Positions 7,676-35,025 of a stretch of 64,000 nt of DNA are shown one piece after another. A program made the translations under genes and the position numbers. Under the pieces are notes generated by a model. It made no database searches. It was not told the DNA's origin and was given only the letters and a program-made list of their open reading frames with translations. The stretch's first letter is position 1. Each line of letters begins with the position of its first letter. The stretch comes from Halobacterium wangiae (GTDB lineage Archaea > Halobacteriota > Halobacteria > Halobacteriales > Halobacteriaceae). The stretch spans positions 2,790,001-2,854,000 of the forward strand of contig NZ_CP089588.1 in assembly GCF_021249345.1 (NCBI RefSeq). Reading direction: 5' to 3'.

Positions 7676-8951
7676 CGAGACGGTCGTCGAGAGCGACGGC
7701 GTCACCGTGAGCAAGTTCTTCAACGCCGAGGACTTCCCGGTGCCCGCGGTCGCCTTCGACGTCTCCTCCTCGCGAGACAGCTCCGTCGAACTGCGCATCG
7801 TCGACGAAATCCCCGACGAGTTCGGCATCGACCAGATCGGCTTCCACCCCGAGTACGGGAGCGAACACTGGACCGCCAGCGGCGAGGGCGTCGTCCGCTT
7901 CGAGCGGGAGATCGAGGCCGGCGAGACGTTCACCACCGTCTACGGCGTCCGCATGGAGGACGGACAGGACGAGACGCCGTTCCTCTCCGCGCCGACCGTC
8001 GAGATCGACGGCGACGACATCGACGACGTCGTCCCACCGGAGTCCACCGACGTCGTCCGCGAACTCGCGGGCGGCGAGCGAGACACCGTACCGGGCCTCG
8101 AGGACGACGAAGAGCTGGAGGCCGAGGTCGGTGCCAGCGCCAGCGGGGGCGGCATCGACGCTCCCGAGGACGACGCCGAGATCCTGGAGGGCGACATCGA
8201 CCTCGGCTCCGACGACGGGACCGAAGCGGACGCGGACTCCGACGCTGGTGAGGACTTCCTCGACTCCGGCGACGAGGACTCCGCAGTCGAGACGGAGGCG
8301 GACGACGCCGGGATTCCCGAACCGGACGCGCCGAGCGAGACGGCCCTCGGCACCGACGCCGACTCGGTGACCGACACGCCGGACTTCGACGACGAACCCG
8401 CCGCCATCGGCTTCGACGCCGGTGACGTCGCCGGTGCGCTCGCCGAGGCCATCCGCCAGGGCGACGTGAGCGACGAGGACATGGAGACCCTCGACGAGGC
8501 GTTCGGCGGCATCTCCGGGAGCACGGAGGTCGAGATCGAGCACGTCCAGAGTCGCGTCTCCGAACTGGAGGCGTACACCGACGCCCTCGAGGCGTTTCTC
8601 GACGACAACGGTCCGGCACAGGACCTGCTCTCGGAACTCGAGGCCGACGTCGCGAGCCTCTCCGACGACCTCGGCGAGCTCGAAGCCAGCGTGGAGAACG
8701 CGGCCGACGAGCGGGAGACCCTCCGCGAGCGCGTCGCGGACGTCGAGGCGGACTTCGACGCCGTCGACGACCTCTCGGAAGACCTCGAACGCCTCCGTGG
8801 CGACGTCGAAGCGCTCGACGAGCGCGTCGCGGACACCGAGGACGCCGTCTTCGAGATCGAGGACGTAGAGGACGACCTCGAGGACCTCGAGGACCACGTC
8901 GACGAGATCGAGCAGTGGCGCAGTCAGCTGTCGGACGTCTTCGGGACGTAG
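7668..8951 (+). CDS. Acidic coiled-coil protein of unknown function
   Basis: 427 residues from the GTG at 7668; an in-frame GTG at 7632 adds 12 residues but lies before the predicted transcription start. Residues about 1-120 look like a beta-rich domain (V-S-K-F-F-N-A-E-D-F-P-V-P-A-V-A-F). Residues about 130-260 are very acidic, Asp/Glu/Ala-rich and probably disordered. Residues about 285-420 form a long heptad-rich coiled coil. No membrane segment is seen, so a cytoplasmic scaffold or filament-like role is possible but not shown. The HisG-like gene follows 60 nt downstream with its own promoter-like box. Confidence 0.7.
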   Translation: MSDETVVESDGVTVSKFFNAEDFPVPAVAFDVSSSRDSSVELRIVDEIPDEFGIDQIGFHPEYGSEHWTASGEGVVRFEREIEAGETFTTVYGVRMEDGQDETPFLSAPTVEIDGDDIDDVVPPESTDVVRELAGGERDTVPGLEDDEELEAEVGASASGGGIDAPEDDAEILEGDIDLGSDDGTEADADSDAGEDFLDSGDEDSAVETEADDAGIPEPDAPSETALGTDADSVTDTPDFDDEPAAIGFDAGDVAGALAEAIRQGDVSDEDMETLDEAFGGISGSTEVEIEHVQSRVSELEAYTDALEAFLDDNGPAQDLLSELEADVASLSDDLGELEASVENAADERETLRERVADVEADFDAVDDLSEDLERLRGDVEALDERVADTEDAVFEIEDVEDDLEDLEDHVDEIEQWRSQLSDVFGT

Positions 8952-8980
8952 TCGGCCCGGGATATCCCCGGAAGCGGAAC

Positions 8981-8989
8981 CGTTTTTGA
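8981..8989 (+). promoter_or_regulatory. TATA-like promoter element
   Basis: The T-rich box CGTTTTTGA is about 27 nt before the ATG at 9012. It suggests the HisG-like gene has its own leaderless transcript rather than relying on the upstream gene. Confidence 0.4.
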
Positions 8990-9011
8990 CGCGCGTGGGC
9001 TTCTCTCGACA

Positions 9012-9920
9012 ATGACTACGCCGGTTCGCGTCGCCGTCCCACGCAAGGGACGGCCGCTGGAAGCCGTTCTCGACCGCCTCGCGGGGTGCGCCGACGCGAC
9101 GAGCGTGGCGGACGACGTCGTCTCGACGCTGCGCTACGAGAAGGCCCTCGCGAAGGACGAGCAGACGGACGACCGCGGCGTCTACGAACGACTCGCCGCG
9201 TACAGCACCCCCGAGGACCCACAGCGGCCCGACTACACGCTGCTCCGCGACGCGCGCGCCGGCAAGCCCCGGCGCATCGTCTTCGACTCGCTGTCACTCG
9301 ACCTGGACGGGACGCCGGTCCAGTTGATCGGGCGCGAGGAGCCGTTCCGCGCGCTGCGTACCCACGAGTTCGCGCTCGGGTTCGACAGCGCCGACCTCGT
9401 TCTCGAGGAGGTCGTCCAGTTGCGGCCGGAGCCGCTGTCGACCATCGCGGACCTGAACGCTCGCATCGACCCTCACGACACGGACGTCCGGGTCGTCTCG
9501 GGGCTCGGCGACACGGTCTACCACACACTGCTGGCGACGCCCGCCGCCAGCCATTCGGTCGACGCCGATGGGCTCGACCGCGGGTTCCTCACCGAGTACG
9601 AGGGGGAGGTCTGCATCAGCCCGCGCTACGAACGCCTCGTCGAGGCCGTGCTCGGGACTGACGCCACCGAGGGCGTCTCGTTCGTCTACCCCGACGCGGG
9701 CCGCGAGGAGGAGGCAGCCATCGCGGACGCGGGCGTCGGCGTCTACCTCACCGTGACGGGGTCGACCGCCCGCGACAACGGCCTCGACGTGGGCGAACGC
9801 CTGTTCCCCAGCGAGACGGTGCTGATGGAGAATCGCTCGGAGGCCACGGGCGACGACGTCGAGGCGGTCCAACGTGCGCTCACCACCGAACAGTCCGAGA
9901 CCGCGATTCCGCCGCAGTAG
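9012..9920 (+). CDS. Divergent HisG-like (ATP phosphoribosyltransferase-like) protein
   Basis: 302 residues. The N-terminus (V-R-V-A-V-P-R-K-G-R-P-L) resembles the R-I-A-L-P-x-K-G-R-L start of HisG. The C-terminal half has V-T-G-S-T-A-R-D-N-G-L-D-V-G-E-R, like the HisG PRPP-loop region S-G-x-T-L-R-x-N-G-L. The middle is unlike HisG and no other his gene is nearby. It may be a paralogue with a different substrate or an inactive periplasmic-binding-like fold. Whether the ACT-like regulatory domain is present is unclear. Confidence 0.5.
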   Translation: MTTPVRVAVPRKGRPLEAVLDRLAGCADATSVADDVVSTLRYEKALAKDEQTDDRGVYERLAAYSTPEDPQRPDYTLLRDARAGKPRRIVFDSLSLDLDGTPVQLIGREEPFRALRTHEFALGFDSADLVLEEVVQLRPEPLSTIADLNARIDPHDTDVRVVSGLGDTVYHTLLATPAASHSVDADGLDRGFLTEYEGEVCISPRYERLVEAVLGTDATEGVSFVYPDAGREEEAAIADAGVGVYLTVTGSTARDNGLDVGERLFPSETVLMENRSEATGDDVEAVQRALTTEQSETAIPPQ

Positions 9921-23292: not shown

Positions 23293-24690
23293 ATGGCGAC
23301 TGAGACAGCCCAGAACCTCCACGAACACGTCGAGCAGTTGCTCGTGCGGGACGCCGACGCTCACGCCGACGCCGTCGAAGCGCTCGCAGAACACGGCGAC
23401 GAACGCGTCGTCCCTCACCTGCTGGAAGTGCTCGTCGTCGACGCCATCGGCAACGACTGGGCGAAGTTCGGCTTCCCGGAGGTGCTCCGTGACCGCGACC
23501 CACCGCGCTACCTCGACCTCCCGGAGGTCCGGTGGCCCGGCGTCCGCGACGCCCTCGCCGAACTCGCGGAGCCGAACTTCGACTCCGCGCACGCCTGGGT
23601 GGAGTGGGAGTCGTGGTACTCCCAGCAGGACATCGAGCCACTGAGTGGGTTCGACGAGTGGAAGCTACGGCTCTACAAGTCGTACCTGCCACCCGTCGGC
23701 GGCCTGCTGGACGCCGAACCGCGGACGTTCGACCTCCAGGACGTCCGCTGGGGGAACTGCGACCGGTCGTTCCTCGCGGCGCTCAACGCCCCCGACTTCC
23801 TCCCCGGCGACGACGCCAGCTACGTGGACGACGGGGACACCGTCTTCGGCTTCGAGATCGAGGGCACCCAGTACGCCGTCCCGCGCTGGGTGCTGTTCCC
23901 GCACGAACTGCTGAACGTCACACTCGACGGCGTCCCGGTCAGCCTCACGTACTGCACGCTCTGCAACGCGCCCATCCTCTACGACAGGCGCGTCGGCGAA
24001 CAGACCGACGGCCCCCACGACGTGCTCACGTTCGGGAGTTCCGGGATGCTCGCGTCCGGGAACAAGGTGATGTACGACGAGGAGACGGAGACCCTGTGGG
24101 ACCAGCACGCCGGCGTCCCGACCGCCGGCCATTACCTCGAAACCAGTCCCGACCTCCTGCTCGACCAGTTCGCGGTCACGCAGACTACGTGGGGCGAGTG
24201 GCGGGCCGAGTACCCGGATACCCTCGCACTGGACATCGACACGGGCTACGACTACGACTACGAACACTACGAGGACCACATCGGCTTCTTCCGCCACTAC
24301 TGGAACGACGAGGAAGCCATCCAGCCGGGCGTCCACAGAGAGGAGGGCGAACTCCCCGAGAAGGCCGACGTCTACGGCATCGTCGGCGAGGACGGCAGCG
24401 AGGTCTGGGTGGTGCCCGAGGACGCAGTCGACGAACCACTCGTCGGTACCGTGGACGGCCGCGAGGTACTCGCGGTGCGAGACGCGACCGGCGACGTCGC
24501 CGTCTACGAGGCACCGCCCGCTCCCGTCGAGTGGGACGGCGACGCGCTCGTCGACGCCGAGGGGACCAGGTGGACGGTCGCGCGCAACGAACTCCGAGCG
24601 GACGGCGCGACGCGCGAACGGATCCCCGGTCGCCACGGCCTCTGGTTCGCCTTCCGCACGCACTACGACGACGCGCACGTCCTGCAGTAG
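23293..24690 (+). CDS. DUF3179 domain-containing protein
   Basis: 465 residues. The DUF3179 core runs from about residue 145 to the end, with V-P-R-W-V-L-F-P-H-E-L-L-N, Y-C-T-L-C-N-A-P-I-L-Y-D-R and T-F-G-S-S-G-M-L. The N-terminal about 110 residues are HEAT-like (V-E-A-L-A-E-H-G-D-E-R-V-V-P-H-L). The C-x-x-C pair could bind metal or form a disulfide. No signal peptide is seen although many family members have one. Function is unknown. A TATA-like CTTTTACTC near 23264-23272 suggests its own promoter. Confidence 0.85.
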   Translation: MATETAQNLHEHVEQLLVRDADAHADAVEALAEHGDERVVPHLLEVLVVDAIGNDWAKFGFPEVLRDRDPPRYLDLPEVRWPGVRDALAELAEPNFDSAHAWVEWESWYSQQDIEPLSGFDEWKLRLYKSYLPPVGGLLDAEPRTFDLQDVRWGNCDRSFLAALNAPDFLPGDDASYVDDGDTVFGFEIEGTQYAVPRWVLFPHELLNVTLDGVPVSLTYCTLCNAPILYDRRVGEQTDGPHDVLTFGSSGMLASGNKVMYDEETETLWDQHAGVPTAGHYLETSPDLLLDQFAVTQTTWGEWRAEYPDTLALDIDTGYDYDYEHYEDHIGFFRHYWNDEEAIQPGVHREEGELPEKADVYGIVGEDGSEVWVVPEDAVDEPLVGTVDGREVLAVRDATGDVAVYEAPPAPVEWDGDALVDAEGTRWTVARNELRADGATRERIPGRHGLWFAFRTHYDDAHVLQ

Positions 24691-28927: not shown

Positions 28928-30013
28928 CTAGGTGGAGTTCGACGGTTCGGCCTCCGCGTAGAAGTTGAACGCCTCGAGCACCGGCCGGTCGGTCATGCCG
29001 AACAGGATCGCCTCCTCACCGTCGGGTTCGTGGTGGTGGATCTCGTCCGGCGGCACCACGAAGATGTCCCGTTCGCCCCACTCGAGGGCCTCGTCGCCGA
29101 CGTGGGTCGCGCCTTCGCCCTCGACGACGAAGTAGACCTCCGTGGAGTTGTGGAAGTGCGGGTCCGTCGACCCCTGGAGCAGCTGCGCGCGGAAGGACAT
29201 CGTCGGCGTCACCGGCGGTTCGCCGTTGGCCGGGTTGACGTACGCGAGACTGTGTCCGTCGTGTGGGTCCGGGTCGTCGTTGTCCGCGTGCTGGCGCAGA
29301 GCCTCCAGCATCTCCGCCCAGCCGAAGCGGTACGGCGGCGTCGGCTCCTGGTTCCCCTCGAACGGACCGGGGATGGAGTCGTCGTCGTCCTCGTTCGTCG
29401 GCCGACCGCGGCCGTACTGGGAGTCCCAGTAGCCCTGCGTCTTCGTCACCGGCTGGCGCTCCAGCTCGTGGTTCTCGAAGACGTGGGTGTTGTTGAGGGT
29501 GTCCAGGAACAGCGGCAGGTCGAGGATGTCGAGCCACGCCGCGGTCTCGTCGGAGTCGTTGACGTGGTCGTGCCACTCCCACTGGGGGGTGGTGATGAGG
29601 TCGTTGTCCAGCATCGGGAACTCCTCGCCGGCGACGACGGTCTTCATCTCCTCGTGGCCGTCGATGGTGAACCGGAGCGCGCTGGAGGCGTGGCGGTGGG
29701 CGGGCGCGGTCTCACCGGGGGAGACGGTCTGGACCCCGACGTAGATGGTGTTCGAGATGGCGTGCGGTGCGTTGATCGGGACGGCGACACGTCGCTGGAA
29801 GCCCGGTGGCAGGTCCGCAATCGGGACGTCGGCCTCGATGCCGTCGATGGCGGCCTGGATGTCCTCCCACTTCCAGATGTTCGCACCGATGTCGTCGATG
29901 AGGTCTCCCATGTCGTCCTCCACTTCCCACAGTGGCCGGAGGTTGTTCTGTTCGAGGATGCTCCTCGTCTCCGCACTCATCTCTAGGAGATCCTCTGGGT
30001 CTTGCTGGGCCAT
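28928..30013 (-). CDS. Gentisate 1,2-dioxygenase (bicupin)
   Basis: 361 residues with two cupin domains. The N-terminal one has P-A-H-R-H-A-S-S-A-L-R-F, the Fe(II)-binding pattern of gentisate 1,2-dioxygenase, then P-M-L-D-N-D-L-I-T-T-P-Q-W-E-W-H-D-H. The C-terminal cupin has D-P-H-F-H-N-S-T-E-V-Y-F and an H-H-H-E cluster. The enzyme opens the ring of 2,5-dihydroxybenzoate to maleylpyruvate. A TATA-like box (minus-strand ACTTATGAG, 30037-30045) about 27 nt upstream points to its own leaderless promoter. It is followed by livKHM. Confidence 0.87.
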   Translation of the reverse strand: MAQQDPEDLLEMSAETRSILEQNNLRPLWEVEDDMGDLIDDIGANIWKWEDIQAAIDGIEADVPIADLPPGFQRRVAVPINAPHAISNTIYVGVQTVSPGETAPAHRHASSALRFTIDGHEEMKTVVAGEEFPMLDNDLITTPQWEWHDHVNDSDETAAWLDILDLPLFLDTLNNTHVFENHELERQPVTKTQGYWDSQYGRGRPTNEDDDDSIPGPFEGNQEPTPPYRFGWAEMLEALRQHADNDDPDPHDGHSLAYVNPANGEPPVTPTMSFRAQLLQGSTDPHFHNSTEVYFVVEGEGATHVGDEALEWGERDIFVVPPDEIHHHEPDGEEAILFGMTDRPVLEAFNFYAEAEPSNST

Positions 30014-30078
30014 AGTGACTCATTGGCACAGAATTCTCATAAGTGTACTGGACACGGCCAGCGGGGCCACCGACGGGT

Positions 30079-30249
30079 TCAGACCTGGTCCGCGTAGACG
30101 TCCGCCGAGCGGAAGACCGAGCGACAGTCCTCGCAGACCATCCGCCGCTGGATGGCGTACTCCCACAGTTTCCCGCCACAGTTCAGACAGTCGAAGTGTG
30201 CTTCCACGAACGGGTCAGCCTCCGCGTACGGGTTCGCGAACTCGGCCAT
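30079..30249 (-). CDS. Small zinc-ribbon protein
   Basis: 56 residues from the ATG at 30249 to TGA at 30079. Two cysteine pairs, C-L-N-C-G-G and C-E-D-C-R-S, spaced 18 residues apart, form a zinc-ribbon pattern. Codon use is strongly haloarchaeal and the protein is acidic with an aromatic-rich middle, so it is probably real despite its size. It sits in line between the thioesterase gene (77 nt upstream) and gentisate dioxygenase (65 nt downstream) on the same strand. Function is unknown; a partner or regulator of the neighbouring enzymes is possible. Confidence 0.75.
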   Translation of the reverse strand: MAEFANPYAEADPFVEAHFDCLNCGGKLWEYAIQRRMVCEDCRSVFRSADVYADQV

Positions 30250-30326
30250 GTGCGTACATCGCCCGGGGAAGCCAAAAGGATACCGTCCACGGGACTCCCG
30301 CGGGCGTCCACCCTTCGAGGACGCGG

Positions 30327-30734
30327 TCAGTCCGCCGTGTACGCCCGCATCGCGTCGCGAAGGTCGTCGGGGAGTTCCATCGACCCGCCGCCACCGATTG
30401 TGGCGCAGACGCGCTGTTCGTAGCCGGAGAACGCCACCTCGCCGTCACTGTGGGCCTCGTACTCGAAGCGCACGCTCCGCGTCCCGAGGTCCGGCGTCAA
30501 CTGGATGGTGACGTCGTCGCCGGCCTCCACGGGGTTCTCGAACTCGAAGTTCATCTCCACGAGCGGGAGCCCGAAGCCGTGTTCCTGGGAGAGCTCCCAG
30601 AACGGGAACCCGATCTCCTGCATGAACATGTCCGAGGTCTCGTGGAGAGCGTCCACGATGCGGGGGTAGTGGGCGATGCCGAACGGGTCCGTGTCCGAGA
30701 ACCGCACCGTCCAGACGCGGTCGTACACGCTCAC
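30327..30734 (-). CDS. 4HBT-family acyl-CoA thioesterase
   Basis: 135 residues of hot-dog fold. The active-site region F-S-D-T-D-P-F-G-I-A-H-Y-P-R matches the 4-hydroxybenzoyl-CoA thioesterase family, in which the acid after the T/S-D is catalytic. It follows the ADP-forming CoA synthetase genes with a 4-nt ATGA overlap, so it is translationally coupled to a CoA-ester maker. Hydrolysis of gentisyl-CoA to gentisate would fit the dioxygenase next door, but other aryl or acyl CoA esters are possible. Confidence 0.83.
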   Translation of the reverse strand: MSVYDRVWTVRFSDTDPFGIAHYPRIVDALHETSDMFMQEIGFPFWELSQEHGFGLPLVEMNFEFENPVEAGDDVTIQLTPDLGTRSVRFEYEAHSDGEVAFSGYEQRVCATIGGGGSMELPDDLRDAMRAYTAD

Positions 30735-31432
30735 TCACCCCCGAGAACCACGAGTGCGTCCAGGGCGACCGCGCCGTCGCCGGTCGCCAGCACCGGGTTC
30801 ACGTCGACCTCCGAGATCTCCTCGTGGGCCGCCACCAGGTCGCCGACGGCCGCCACGACCTCGGCGAGCGCGTCCACGTCCGCCGGTTCACGACCGCGGT
30901 AGCCGGCCAGCAGCTCCGCCGCGGTCAGCTCCTCGATGGCCTCGCGGGCCTCCGCCTCGTCGATGGGCGCGATGCGGTGGCTCGTGTCCTCGTACACCTC
31001 CGTGAAGATGCCGCCGAGCCCCGTGAGCACGACCGGACCGAACGACGGGTCGCGAAGGCCGCCGACGATGACCTCGGTTCCGGCGTCCACGTCGGCGGCC
31101 TCCTCGACGAGCACGTCCGCGTCGATGTCGAGGTCGTCGGCCGCCGCGAAGATGGCGTCTGTGGCCTCCCGGACCGCCTCCGCGGAGTCGAGGCCCACCG
31201 CGACGCCAGCGCCGTCGGCCCACTCGCTCTTGTGGGTGACCGCCGGCGAGGAGACCTTCACAACCACCGGGAAGCCGATGTCGCTGGCGGCCTCGACTGC
31301 GGCGTCGGTGTCCGACGCGACGGCGAACGCCGGCGTCTCGATGCCCGCGGCCGCGAGCAGCGACTTCGATTCGGCCTCCGTGAGCGTCGTCCGTCCCTCG
31401 GCCTGCGCGGCCGCGATCGGGTTCTCAGACAT
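30731..31432 (-). CDS. ADP-forming acyl-CoA synthetase, beta (ATP-grasp) subunit
   Basis: 233 residues, the ATP-grasp half of acetate-CoA ligase (ADP-forming): F-P-V-V-V-K-V-S-S-P-A-V-T-H-K-S-E near residue 53, then E-V-I-V-G-G-L-R-D-P-S-F-G-P-V and E-V-D-V-N-P. It transfers phosphate with its alpha partner between ADP/ATP and acyl-phosphohistidine. The start overlaps the alpha gene by 8 nt and the stop overlaps the thioesterase gene by 4 nt. Confidence 0.9.
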   Translation of the reverse strand: MSENPIAAAQAEGRTTLTEAESKSLLAAAGIETPAFAVASDTDAAVEAASDIGFPVVVKVSSPAVTHKSEWADGAGVAVGLDSAEAVREATDAIFAAADDLDIDADVLVEEAADVDAGTEVIVGGLRDPSFGPVVLTGLGGIFTEVYEDTSHRIAPIDEAEAREAIEELTAAELLAGYRGREPADVDALAEVVAAVGDLVAAHEEISEVDVNPVLATGDGAVALDALVVLGGE

Positions 31433-32801
31433 CGGCGCTCACCTCCTCGTCCGCTCCCGTCTCGTCCAACTCGGCGTAGCGAGCGAGCAGCGCCGCGGCC
31501 TCGGCGCCGCGCTCGGGCGACGTGAACACCGGCACCCCCGCGTCCCTGAGCGCCGCGAGGTCGTCGGCCATCGACTCCGCGGGCCCCTCCGTCGCGAACA
31601 GCACGGGTTTCTCGACGCGCTCGGCGAGTCCGTCCAGCGTCTCCTGGGGGAAGCCGAGGGCCTCCTCGTACAGTTCGTATACGAGGACGACGTCGACGTT
31701 CTCGTCCTCGGCGACGGCCTCGACGACGTCGCCGAACGCGGGCATCGGCCGTCCCGTGTCCACCGGGTTCTCCGCGTACGTGATGCCCGGGAGGATCTCG
31801 CCGACGCGGTCCTGGGTCTCCGCCTCGAGGTCCGGTAGCCTCGCGCCGGCGCGCTGGAGGCGGTCCGCGACGATGATGCCGGGTCCGGCCTGCGCGGTGA
31901 CGACGCCGACGTTCGCCCCGTCCGGTTCCGGGGACGCGGCGAGCGCCTGGCCGCCGTCGAACAGTGCCGTCGTCGACTCTACCGTCGGGACGCCGTACTG
32001 CTGGAAGCCCGCGGTGTACAGCGCGTGGTCGCCAGTGAGCGCGCCGGTGTGGGACTCCGCGAAGTCGCCGACGTCGGACTGCCCGACCTTGTACGCGACC
32101 ACCGGGGTGTCTGACTCGCGGCACGCCTCGAGGAGTGCCCGGCCGTCGTCCGTCCCCTCGACGTGGAGCACGATGGCGTCCGTCTCCGGGTCCGAGTCGA
32201 AGTACGGGATGGCCTCCTCGAAGCCGACGTTCGCGCGGTTCCCCAGCCCGACCATCGTCGCGATACCCCGGCCCTCCCGGTGGGCGTGGAACGCTAGCTG
32301 GTGGGCGACGCCGCCGCTCTGTGCGAGGATCGTCACGCCCCCGGGCTGGAGTCGTTCTACGCCGCCCGCGAACGACGCGAGCAGGTTCGAGGCGGGTGCG
32401 ACGAAGCCGCTCGTGTTCGGGCCGAGCAGGGCGACGTCGTGTTCCTCGGCGGCCGCGACGACGTCCGCCTGTAGCTGTTCGCCGTCGTCGCCGGCCTCGG
32501 CGAAGCCGCCGGCGTAGATGACGGCGCCGCCGACCCCGGCCTCGCCGCACTCCGCGACGACGTCAGGGACGACGTGGGCCGGCACCGCGAGCAACGCGAG
32601 GTCCACGCGCTCGTCGATGTCCGTGACGGAGTCCACGAACGGTTCGTCGAAGACGGAGCCCTCGCCGGAGGGATTCACCGGGTAGACGCGACCGTCGAAC
32701 TCGACGGCGTTCGCCATCGCCTCGTAACCGAGTTTTCCTTCGGTCGCGGAGGCGCCGACGACTGCGATACGGTCGGGCCGGAACAGGCGCTGCAGGTTCA
32801 C
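31425..32801 (-). CDS. ADP-forming acyl-CoA synthetase, alpha (CoA-binding) subunit
   Basis: 458 residues from a GTG at 32801. The N-terminal CoA-binding domain begins F-R-P-D-R-I-A-V-V-G-A-S (about residue 7), and the succinyl-CoA ligase-like part includes L-G-P-N-T-S-G-F and A-Q-S-G-G-V-A-H-Q. A Ser/Thr-rich position where many family members have the phosphohistidine (around S-H-T-G-A-L-T-G-D-H) is visible, with His in place. In most archaea alpha and beta are fused or in this order. The acyl substrate is unknown; an aryl acid or a product such as acetate or succinate are both possible. Confidence 0.9.
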   Translation of the reverse strand: MNLQRLFRPDRIAVVGASATEGKLGYEAMANAVEFDGRVYPVNPSGEGSVFDEPFVDSVTDIDERVDLALLAVPAHVVPDVVAECGEAGVGGAVIYAGGFAEAGDDGEQLQADVVAAAEEHDVALLGPNTSGFVAPASNLLASFAGGVERLQPGGVTILAQSGGVAHQLAFHAHREGRGIATMVGLGNRANVGFEEAIPYFDSDPETDAIVLHVEGTDDGRALLEACRESDTPVVAYKVGQSDVGDFAESHTGALTGDHALYTAGFQQYGVPTVESTTALFDGGQALAASPEPDGANVGVVTAQAGPGIIVADRLQRAGARLPDLEAETQDRVGEILPGITYAENPVDTGRPMPAFGDVVEAVAEDENVDVVLVYELYEEALGFPQETLDGLAERVEKPVLFATEGPAESMADDLAALRDAGVPVFTSPERGAEAAALLARYAELDETGADEEVSADV

Positions 32802-34292: not shown

Positions 34293-34919
34293 CTACGCCG
34301 GCTTCCCGCTGAAGTTCACGAAGCGGTCGAGTTTCTCGCTGGCGTCGCTGGTGACGCTCTCGCCGTGGAACACCAGGCCGACGTCGAAGTCGTACGCGAG
34401 CAGGTTGGCCAGCGACGCGTCCGCCTGCCCGAGGTCCTCCGAGAAGTACGCGGGCGGGAGCACGAAGTAGCCCTCCGGGAGCCCCCGCGCGTCGGCGCCG
34501 AAGACGGCGTCACCCATCACCGCGACGCCGCGGTTCCCGTCGACCAGCGAGTGGTGGTGTGGCGTGTGTCCGGGCGTGTGGACGGCAGTGAACTGTCCCA
34601 CCGCGTCGCCGTCGCCGAACCGGTTGTCCGGGTCGTGGCCGTCGACCGGGACGCCGTCGGGGACCCACGTCTCAAGGTCGTAGTGGTCCGCGAGCGTGGC
34701 GACGCCGCCGGCGTGGTCGGGGTCGCCGTGGGTCACCACCAGCCGTTCGGGTTCGACGCCGAGTTCGTCTAGGTGTTCGACTACAGCGTCCGTCGTGTCT
34801 TCCAGGCCGGCGTCCACGAGCGTCGGCGTCTCGTCGTCGAAGAGGAATACCCGGTAGCGGCCACCGTTCACCTCCGCGAGCGTCAGGTCGTAGACGTCCG
34901 TCGTGATCTCTGTGCGCAT
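34293..34919 (-). CDS. MBL-fold metallo-hydrolase (glyoxalase-II-like)
   Basis: 208 residues from the ATG at 34919. The metal motif is T-H-G-D-P-D-H-A-G-G (H-x-D-x-D-H, as in some glyoxalase-II-like branches) with H-T-P-G-H-T-P-H-H-H and G-D-A-V-F downstream. It probably hydrolyses a thioester or similar bond, but the substrate is unknown. It is convergent with livG, with only an 8-nt gap, and divergent from the SLC13 gene. Confidence 0.85.
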   Translation of the reverse strand: MRTEITTDVYDLTLAEVNGGRYRVFLFDDETPTLVDAGLEDTTDAVVEHLDELGVEPERLVVTHGDPDHAGGVATLADHYDLETWVPDGVPVDGHDPDNRFGDGDAVGQFTAVHTPGHTPHHHSLVDGNRGVAVMGDAVFGADARGLPEGYFVLPPAYFSEDLGQADASLANLLAYDFDVGLVFHGESVTSDASEKLDRFVNFSGKPA

Positions 34920-35025
34920 CGTCCACACGTGGACACCGGAGCACCAAATTCGTTGCCGGGACTACCCGGGTTCCGGAAGACACATGTGAGCCGTTTGCGT
35001 GGAATCAGCCGAACGGTGACCACAC

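Follow-up and report, generated by a model that had tools for sequence, protein, structure and literature searches.

A 56-residue putative zinc-ribbon protein (ZR) is encoded, in the haloarchaeal genomes sampled here, one to one with gentisate 1,2-dioxygenase (GDO) and directly beside it. The gene lies at positions 30079–30249 on the minus strand (ATG start, stop codon included) of the window, by which we mean the whole 64-kb stretch of Halobacterium wangiae DNA analysed. It is situated between a thioesterase gene and the gene for GDO (28928–30013, minus strand), its stop 65 nt ahead of the GDO start codon. The constant partner of ZR is GDO and not the CoA genes on its other side. We think it about an even chance (roughly 0.5) that ZR is a dedicated accessory protein of the haloarchaeal-type GDO, concerned with metal loading, protection or assembly.

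Occurrence and arrangement of the two genes

Among 98 relatives, 11 carry GDO and the same 11 carry a strong match to ZR, which is found in none of the other 87. Weak ZR matches alone occur in two further relatives (G017 and G034; E 4e-4 and 1e-3), and one relative (G006) has a weak match besides its strong one. The window's own genome, a single contig of 3.1 Mb, has one match. Sampling of the class (391 genomes) gave 62 with both genes, none with ZR alone, one (G335) with GDO alone and 328 with neither; the strong ZR copies number 63 in 62 genomes and the GDO copies 64 in 63 genomes (Fisher p 6e-72 for co-occurrence, ancestry common to the genomes being ignored). The threshold in this sample was E <1e-30 for strong ZR, the next match being at 1.2e-5, and E up to 1e-8 for GDO. 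As these searches scored only candidates from a loose first look (at most five per genome for GDO and, in the class sample, at most 16 for ZR), divergent copies of either gene may be missed. A sample of the phylum gave ZR in 11 of 392 genomes, all from the window's own order, and the genus Haloferax gave it in two of 15; in Haloferax volcanii, from the control set, there is a match to TIGR02272 under the cut-off.

All 63 ZR copies in the 391 genomes adjoin GDO on the same strand, and in G196, which has two of each gene, each ZR is paired with a GDO. ZR comes first in 46 of these pairs (gap 65–274 nt) and GDO in 17 (gap 101–193 nt). On plasmids, 24 records carry a GDO of 74–85% identity, and exactly these 24 carry ZR, in every case next to GDO and in the same orientation, with ZR first in 19 and GDO first in five; the plasmid and genome collections overlap in part and are not fully independent. 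ZR had no match in the other 146 plasmid records, whose GDOs are <60% identical; the 36 of them that were listed are all from bacteria, with GDOs of 31–36% identity.

A maximum-likelihood tree of 53 GDOs (43 from ZR-first and ten from GDO-first pairs) needs three changes of gene order, against a mean of 9.4 on shuffling. Well-supported branches force all three changes, and adjacency is kept throughout. Families are intermingled in the tree, as if the pair had been transferred between lineages. Distances among ZR and among GDO sequences are correlated in a mirror-tree comparison (r 0.47, with 0 of 2000 permutations as high), a weak result that still contains the effect of shared descent.

The sequence-only reading of the window had proposed a search for homologues next to GDO genes in other haloarchaea, and GDO does adjoin ZR in each of the 26 loci fetched as well as in the 63 copies just described. 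That reading had also set the gene in line with the CoA genes and supposed from its position a role with these enzymes, be it regulation, the handling of iron or zinc, or contact between proteins, all of which are still hypothetical. Position does matter and the genes are in line, but the link to the CoA genes is not constant. In the window these are a hot-dog thioesterase (30327–30734, minus strand; Pfam 4HBT_2, E 6.6e-13) and a split ADP-forming-type acyl-CoA synthetase (30731–32801, minus strand; Pfam ATP-grasp_5, Succ_CoA_lig and CoA_binding_2, with synteny), the latter comprising an ATP-grasp subunit (30731–31432) and a CoA-binding/ligase subunit (31425–32801). The thioesterase was found in 14 of the 26 loci and not found in 12; in L010 it lies on the opposite strand about 3 kb off. 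CoA-synthetase genes are absent from some loci. Flanks of at most 6 kb in either direction were covered, and contig ends truncate some of them (to 1.9 kb on one side in L004), which means that a small number of these absences may be false. With the neighbourhood so fluid while GDO is adjacent in 26/26, the thioesterase and CoA genes are rejected as the constant partner. Fumarylacetoacetate-hydrolase-type genes are present in 18/26 loci, CoA-ligase genes in many and an IclR-type regulator gene in 7/26. The remaining genes of the pathway differ from locus to locus, so ZR is tied to the enzyme and not to one layout of the pathway.

Two other genes of the window have relatives in this neighbourhood. 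A DUF3179 protein gene (23293–24690) has relatives near the pair in L002 and L003, and its relative in L052 is annotated ‘(seleno)protein’. The product of 34293–34928 is by eye an MBL-fold hydrolase, possibly a second CoA-ester hydrolase, with relatives in 13/26 fetched loci, with or without the thioesterase.

The neighbouring enzyme is a bicupin that owes its name to homology, because two NCBIfam models match it almost equally, both below their cut-offs (5-aminosalicylate 1,2-dioxygenase, E 5.5e-62; gentisate_1_2, E 7.5e-61). Its relatives of solved structure are gentisate 1,2-dioxygenases. Histidine motifs lie at residues 106–108 (HRH) and 148–150 (HDH) in cupin 1, and at 286–288 (HFH) and 326–328 (HHH) in cupin 2; those of cupin 1 agree with His104, His106 and His145 in the Escherichia coli enzyme (PMC4585797). 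GDO activity in haloarchaea has been reported for Haloferax D1227, with a closely related gene in Haloarcula D1 (PMC4005966).

The one genome of the class sample with GDO and no ZR, G335, has a divergent enzyme of about 45–46% identity. At this locus (L085; G335:C7:30000-48000) there is no ZR-like gene beside the GDO-like gene at 8449–9480, which perhaps catalyses another ring-cleaving reaction. The sole two-CxxC frame found there, about 6 kb from the GDO-like gene, looks by eye to be unrelated to ZR. The cluster also holds ACD subunits, an IclR-type regulator and two proteins that by eye resemble PaaA and PaaC. A ZR copy away from GDO is seen on a plasmid of Halocatena marina (NZ_CP109980.1), where a second copy (L052:16082-16261, a 59-codon ORF beginning MAAFETPNAQTNPFVRAHFDRLNSSEKLCKYPNQDKMVCKDD with the annotation ‘hypothetical protein’) has decayed and retains one of the four cysteines, three being lost. 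Directly downstream of it is a gene for an FAD/Fe-S oxidoreductase, and the intact pair is about 5 kb away. Such decay would fit a loss of function once ZR is unpaired, as far as a single case goes.

The ZR protein and its relatives in kind

The product of 30079–30249 (minus strand) is MAEFANPYAEADPFVEAHFDCLNCGGKLWEYAIQRRMVCEDCRSVFRSADVYADQV (MAEF...ADQV), an acidic protein with 10 D/E to 5 K/R and with cysteines at positions 21, 24, 39 and 42. The first pair, C21-L-N-C24, is followed by G25 to give CxxCG (30178–30189, minus strand), and the second is C39-E-D-C42 (30124–30135, minus strand). The sequence-only reading had picked out these two pairs, and all four cysteines prove to be invariant in 34 of 34 aligned sequences and in 53 of 53 distinct loci. 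Also invariant in the 34 are M1, F4, N6, Y8, P13, A17–D20, G26, L28–Y31, M37–V38 and E40. The N-terminal tail, residues 1–19 (30193–30249, minus strand; MAEFxNPYxxxxPFVxAHF), has a mean conservation of 0.88 as against 0.89 for the ribbon (residues 20–46).

ZR is a genuine conserved gene under purifying selection. One protein scan of the GTDB contig collection gave orthologues at 26 loci, 69–87% identical and every one haloarchaeal by title. Against six relatives, dN/dS is 0.10–0.25, close to the 0.13–0.23 of GDO, with pN of 0.05–0.10 and pS of 0.25–0.40 in the six comparisons. A chance ORF is ruled out by these orthologues, by the invariant cysteines, by pN being below pS and by ZR being the sole ORF of 35–100 residues in the window with two CxxC pairs 7–40 residues apart. 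Lack of conservation of the frame in related genomes had been named beforehand as the finding that would sink the claim; the frame is kept. The gene is therefore real, but ‘overlooked’ does not hold generally, for 22 of the 24 plasmid records carry it as ‘hypothetical protein’, one having no feature at the place and one being an unannotated record. Annotation pipelines thus know ZR, without a function.

No Pfam model matched ZR over its cut-off (best zf_Rg, E 0.0051) and no NCBIfam model matched at all, so membership of a known family in either collection is rejected. The AlphaFold model, from a 34-row alignment, is a zinc-ribbon hairpin with a C-terminal helix at a mean pLDDT of 73.4, falling to about 55 for residues 1–20. 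A Foldseek comparison of this model with the PDB gave nothing significant, the best match being NudC (E 0.21), with PriA and the N-terminal domain of TFIIB lower. According to a study of H. volcanii, AlphaFold2 cannot tell whether four such cysteines have metal geometry (PMC11241148), and the zinc ribbon is accordingly a motif-level claim. At that level, and by a model of moderate confidence, the zinc ribbon of the sequence-only reading is supported. A profile search of PDB sequences with E up to 10 returned seven, none of them named as a rubredoxin and 3-hydroxyanthranilate dioxygenase not among them, and on this search a relationship of ZR to either by sequence is rejected.

Archaeal CPxCG-related small zinc-finger proteins have been defined by CPxCG, CxxCG or CPxC together with a second Cys/His pair (PMC2253796). 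Judged by its residues, ZR falls within this definition: it is shorter than 100 residues, C21-L-N-C24-G25 is a CxxCG pattern and C39-E-D-C42 supplies the second pair, the 14 residues between C24 and C39 lying within the 7–40 allowed. It resembles Brz, HVO_2753 and HVO_0758 in being haloarchaeal, of fewer than 100 residues and equipped with CxxCG and a second cysteine pair, and differs from such proteins generally in that it belongs to a family of orthologues whose N-terminal tail is conserved and which is tied to one enzyme gene. H. volcanii has 43 or 49 tiny four-cysteine proteins, depending on the count (PMC6562870, PMC11241148); of 14 such proteins purified, nine bound zinc and five were zinc-free (PMC11241148).

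Sixteen of these H. volcanii genes have been deleted, HVO_A0089 included (PMC6562870). HVO_A0089 is a zinc-finger micro-protein whose locus tag adjoins that of HVO_A0090, listed as gentisate 1,2-dioxygenase (PMC11349517); from the neighbouring tags it is probably the ZR orthologue. Among the conditions tabulated, the sole phenotype recorded for its deletion is loss of growth on glycerol, and gentisate is not among the media in as much of the study as is covered here (PMC6562870). The HVO_A0090 protein itself rises 13.4-fold under iron starvation (PMC11349517), which is odd for an iron enzyme.

Probable promoters of ZR and GDO

Each of the two genes looks to have its own leaderless-type promoter. 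A TATA-like CTTTT lies 29 nt upstream of the ZR start codon (30274–30278, minus strand) and is conserved in position. The promoter element of GDO, TCCAGTACACTTAT (30039–30052, minus strand), has a TATA-like CTTAT at −30 and is conserved across the 53 pairs. Of 53 distinct loci, 47 have a TATA-like element at −36 to −26 before ZR and 48 have one there before GDO, as against 1/53 for either gene in a control window at −58 to −48. With such elements before both, ZR and GDO look to be separately promoted, and a fixed ratio of the two proteins need not be enforced by one transcript.

Of 20 chosen genomes with GDO, 15 contain the exact sequence TCCARYACACTTAT, each of them once and immediately ahead of GDO, and none of ten chosen genomes without GDO contains it; an exact 14-mer is rare by chance anyway. 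Among 11 upstream sets compared within the loci, the element of GDO (22.0 bits) stood above eight of the others and below those of LivH (23.6 bits) and ACDa (22.6 bits), both with fewer loci. Because two elements exceed it, that of GDO is not exceptional and we do not call it an operator, for ZR or otherwise. From the TATA-like box to the GDO start codon, conservation across clades is mostly poor. In the window the stretch from this box towards the GDO start (30021–30043; CTTATGAGAATTCTGTGCYAATG) is conserved mainly in the Halobacterium relatives and partly in L025; it is possibly a clade-specific operator.

Possible functions of ZR

As an accessory protein, ZR would hold one metal ion in a knuckle of zinc-ribbon or rubredoxin-like form, bound by cysteines 21, 24, 39 and 42. 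Docking on the GDO oligomer would be by the conserved N-terminal tail, and the docked protein would help the enzyme either to acquire or retain its ferrous iron or to form a stable assembly. The metal on ZR, the contact with GDO and the effect on iron or stability are what we infer. We rank this accessory role first on the grounds that what ZR is tied to is the gene of the enzyme, that the tie holds in both gene orders and through at least three rearrangements, and that a conserved tail exists outside the ribbon. That tail is conserved yet modelled with low confidence, as a docking segment might be.

Some results count against an accessory role. Catalysis as such seems to be independent of ZR, since the 146 plasmid records with GDOs of <60% identity gave no match to it and solved GDOs are known. 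The separate promoter-like elements of the two genes and the naming of GDO by homology weigh on the same side. For an AlphaFold pseudo-fusion, locus L020 was read through ZR, the spacer and GDO, and aligned with ten other loci and with GDOs alone (34 related rows). The best model (mean pLDDT 65.6) has no signal of ZR docking; the alignment is shallow and the GDO part mediocre, so we take it as weak evidence either way. The tail blocks 1–10 and 11–20 have a pLDDT of 30 and 44 in this model, below the 55 and 56 that they have in the window's ZR modelled by itself. The glycerol defect, the only one tabulated for deletion of HVO_A0089, also sits awkwardly with an accessory of GDO if that gene is indeed the orthologue, and the characterised precedent in the protein class, Brz, is a regulator.

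The main rival, ranked next and to be taken as a tentative but serious possibility, is that ZR controls transcription of GDO as Brz does that of bop, through the promoter, the basal factors or a partner regulator. In Halobacterium salinarum the small zinc-finger protein Brz, whose gene immediately precedes bop and points the same way, is needed for high bop mRNA; deletion established it as a regulator (PMC2253796). ZR likewise adjoins its partner gene in line (63/63 adjacent on the same strand), but Brz is encoded upstream of its target, whereas ZR lies upstream of GDO in 46 pairs and downstream in 17 of the 63, which speaks against control of this kind. The conserved GDO promoter element with its 15/20 versus 0/10 distribution favours a regulator, tempered by the higher scores of LivH and ACDa and by the poor conservation between box and start codon. 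The weak ribbon matches, among those listed, are mostly in open frames of about 320–390 residues, and one such frame, when examined, consists of a helix-turn-helix and DUF7351, which would suit a regulatory ribbon. The acidity of ZR would not, and the IclR-type gene present in 7/26 loci could do the regulating instead.

The remaining explanations are less probable. ZR might act elsewhere, in general stress or carbon metabolism, and merely travel with GDO on an exchanged segment. The glycerol phenotype of the probable orthologue (PMC6562870) and the mixing of families in the GDO tree, as though the segment were mobile between lineages, would agree with this, but a strong ZR is missing from all 328 sampled genomes that lack GDO, and adjacency survives at least three changes of order while neighbours such as the thioesterase travel less faithfully; we regard it as unlikely. 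A role in another gentisate step, be it handling of substrate or product or the next enzyme, seems if anything a shade more unlikely. The fumarylacetoacetate-hydrolase-type and CoA-ligase genes around the pair invite it, yet none of them was found in all loci and GDO is adjacent in every one.

Small metalloproteins beside ring-cleaving dioxygenases have a precedent in the XylT-type ferredoxin, whose gene is next to that of catechol 2,3-dioxygenase and which reactivates the iron of that enzyme; it shares with ZR the position of its gene but is a [2Fe-2S] ferredoxin and not a zinc ribbon. Bacterial 3-hydroxyanthranilate 3,4-dioxygenase, a cupin ring-cleaving dioxygenase, we take to have a rubredoxin-type four-cysteine iron site built into the enzyme chain, where ZR would be a separate protein. 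A bolder and rather doubtful reading has ZR as a rubredoxin-like protein acting in trans on the catalytic iron of GDO, which it would load, guard or re-reduce. ZR would then be to haloarchaeal GDO, as a detached protein, what the built-in rubredoxin iron is to 3-hydroxyanthranilate dioxygenase. The literature searched yielded no link between a small zinc-finger protein and GDO, subscription papers such as those on the Haloferax D1227 GDO lying outside the scope of the search.

Haloarchaea have dozens of tiny four-cysteine proteins, nearly all without a known job, and ZR is one that genome evidence ties to a single, easily assayed enzyme, so that its function is directly testable. The pairing may also matter for the behaviour of haloarchaeal GDO produced without its neighbour.
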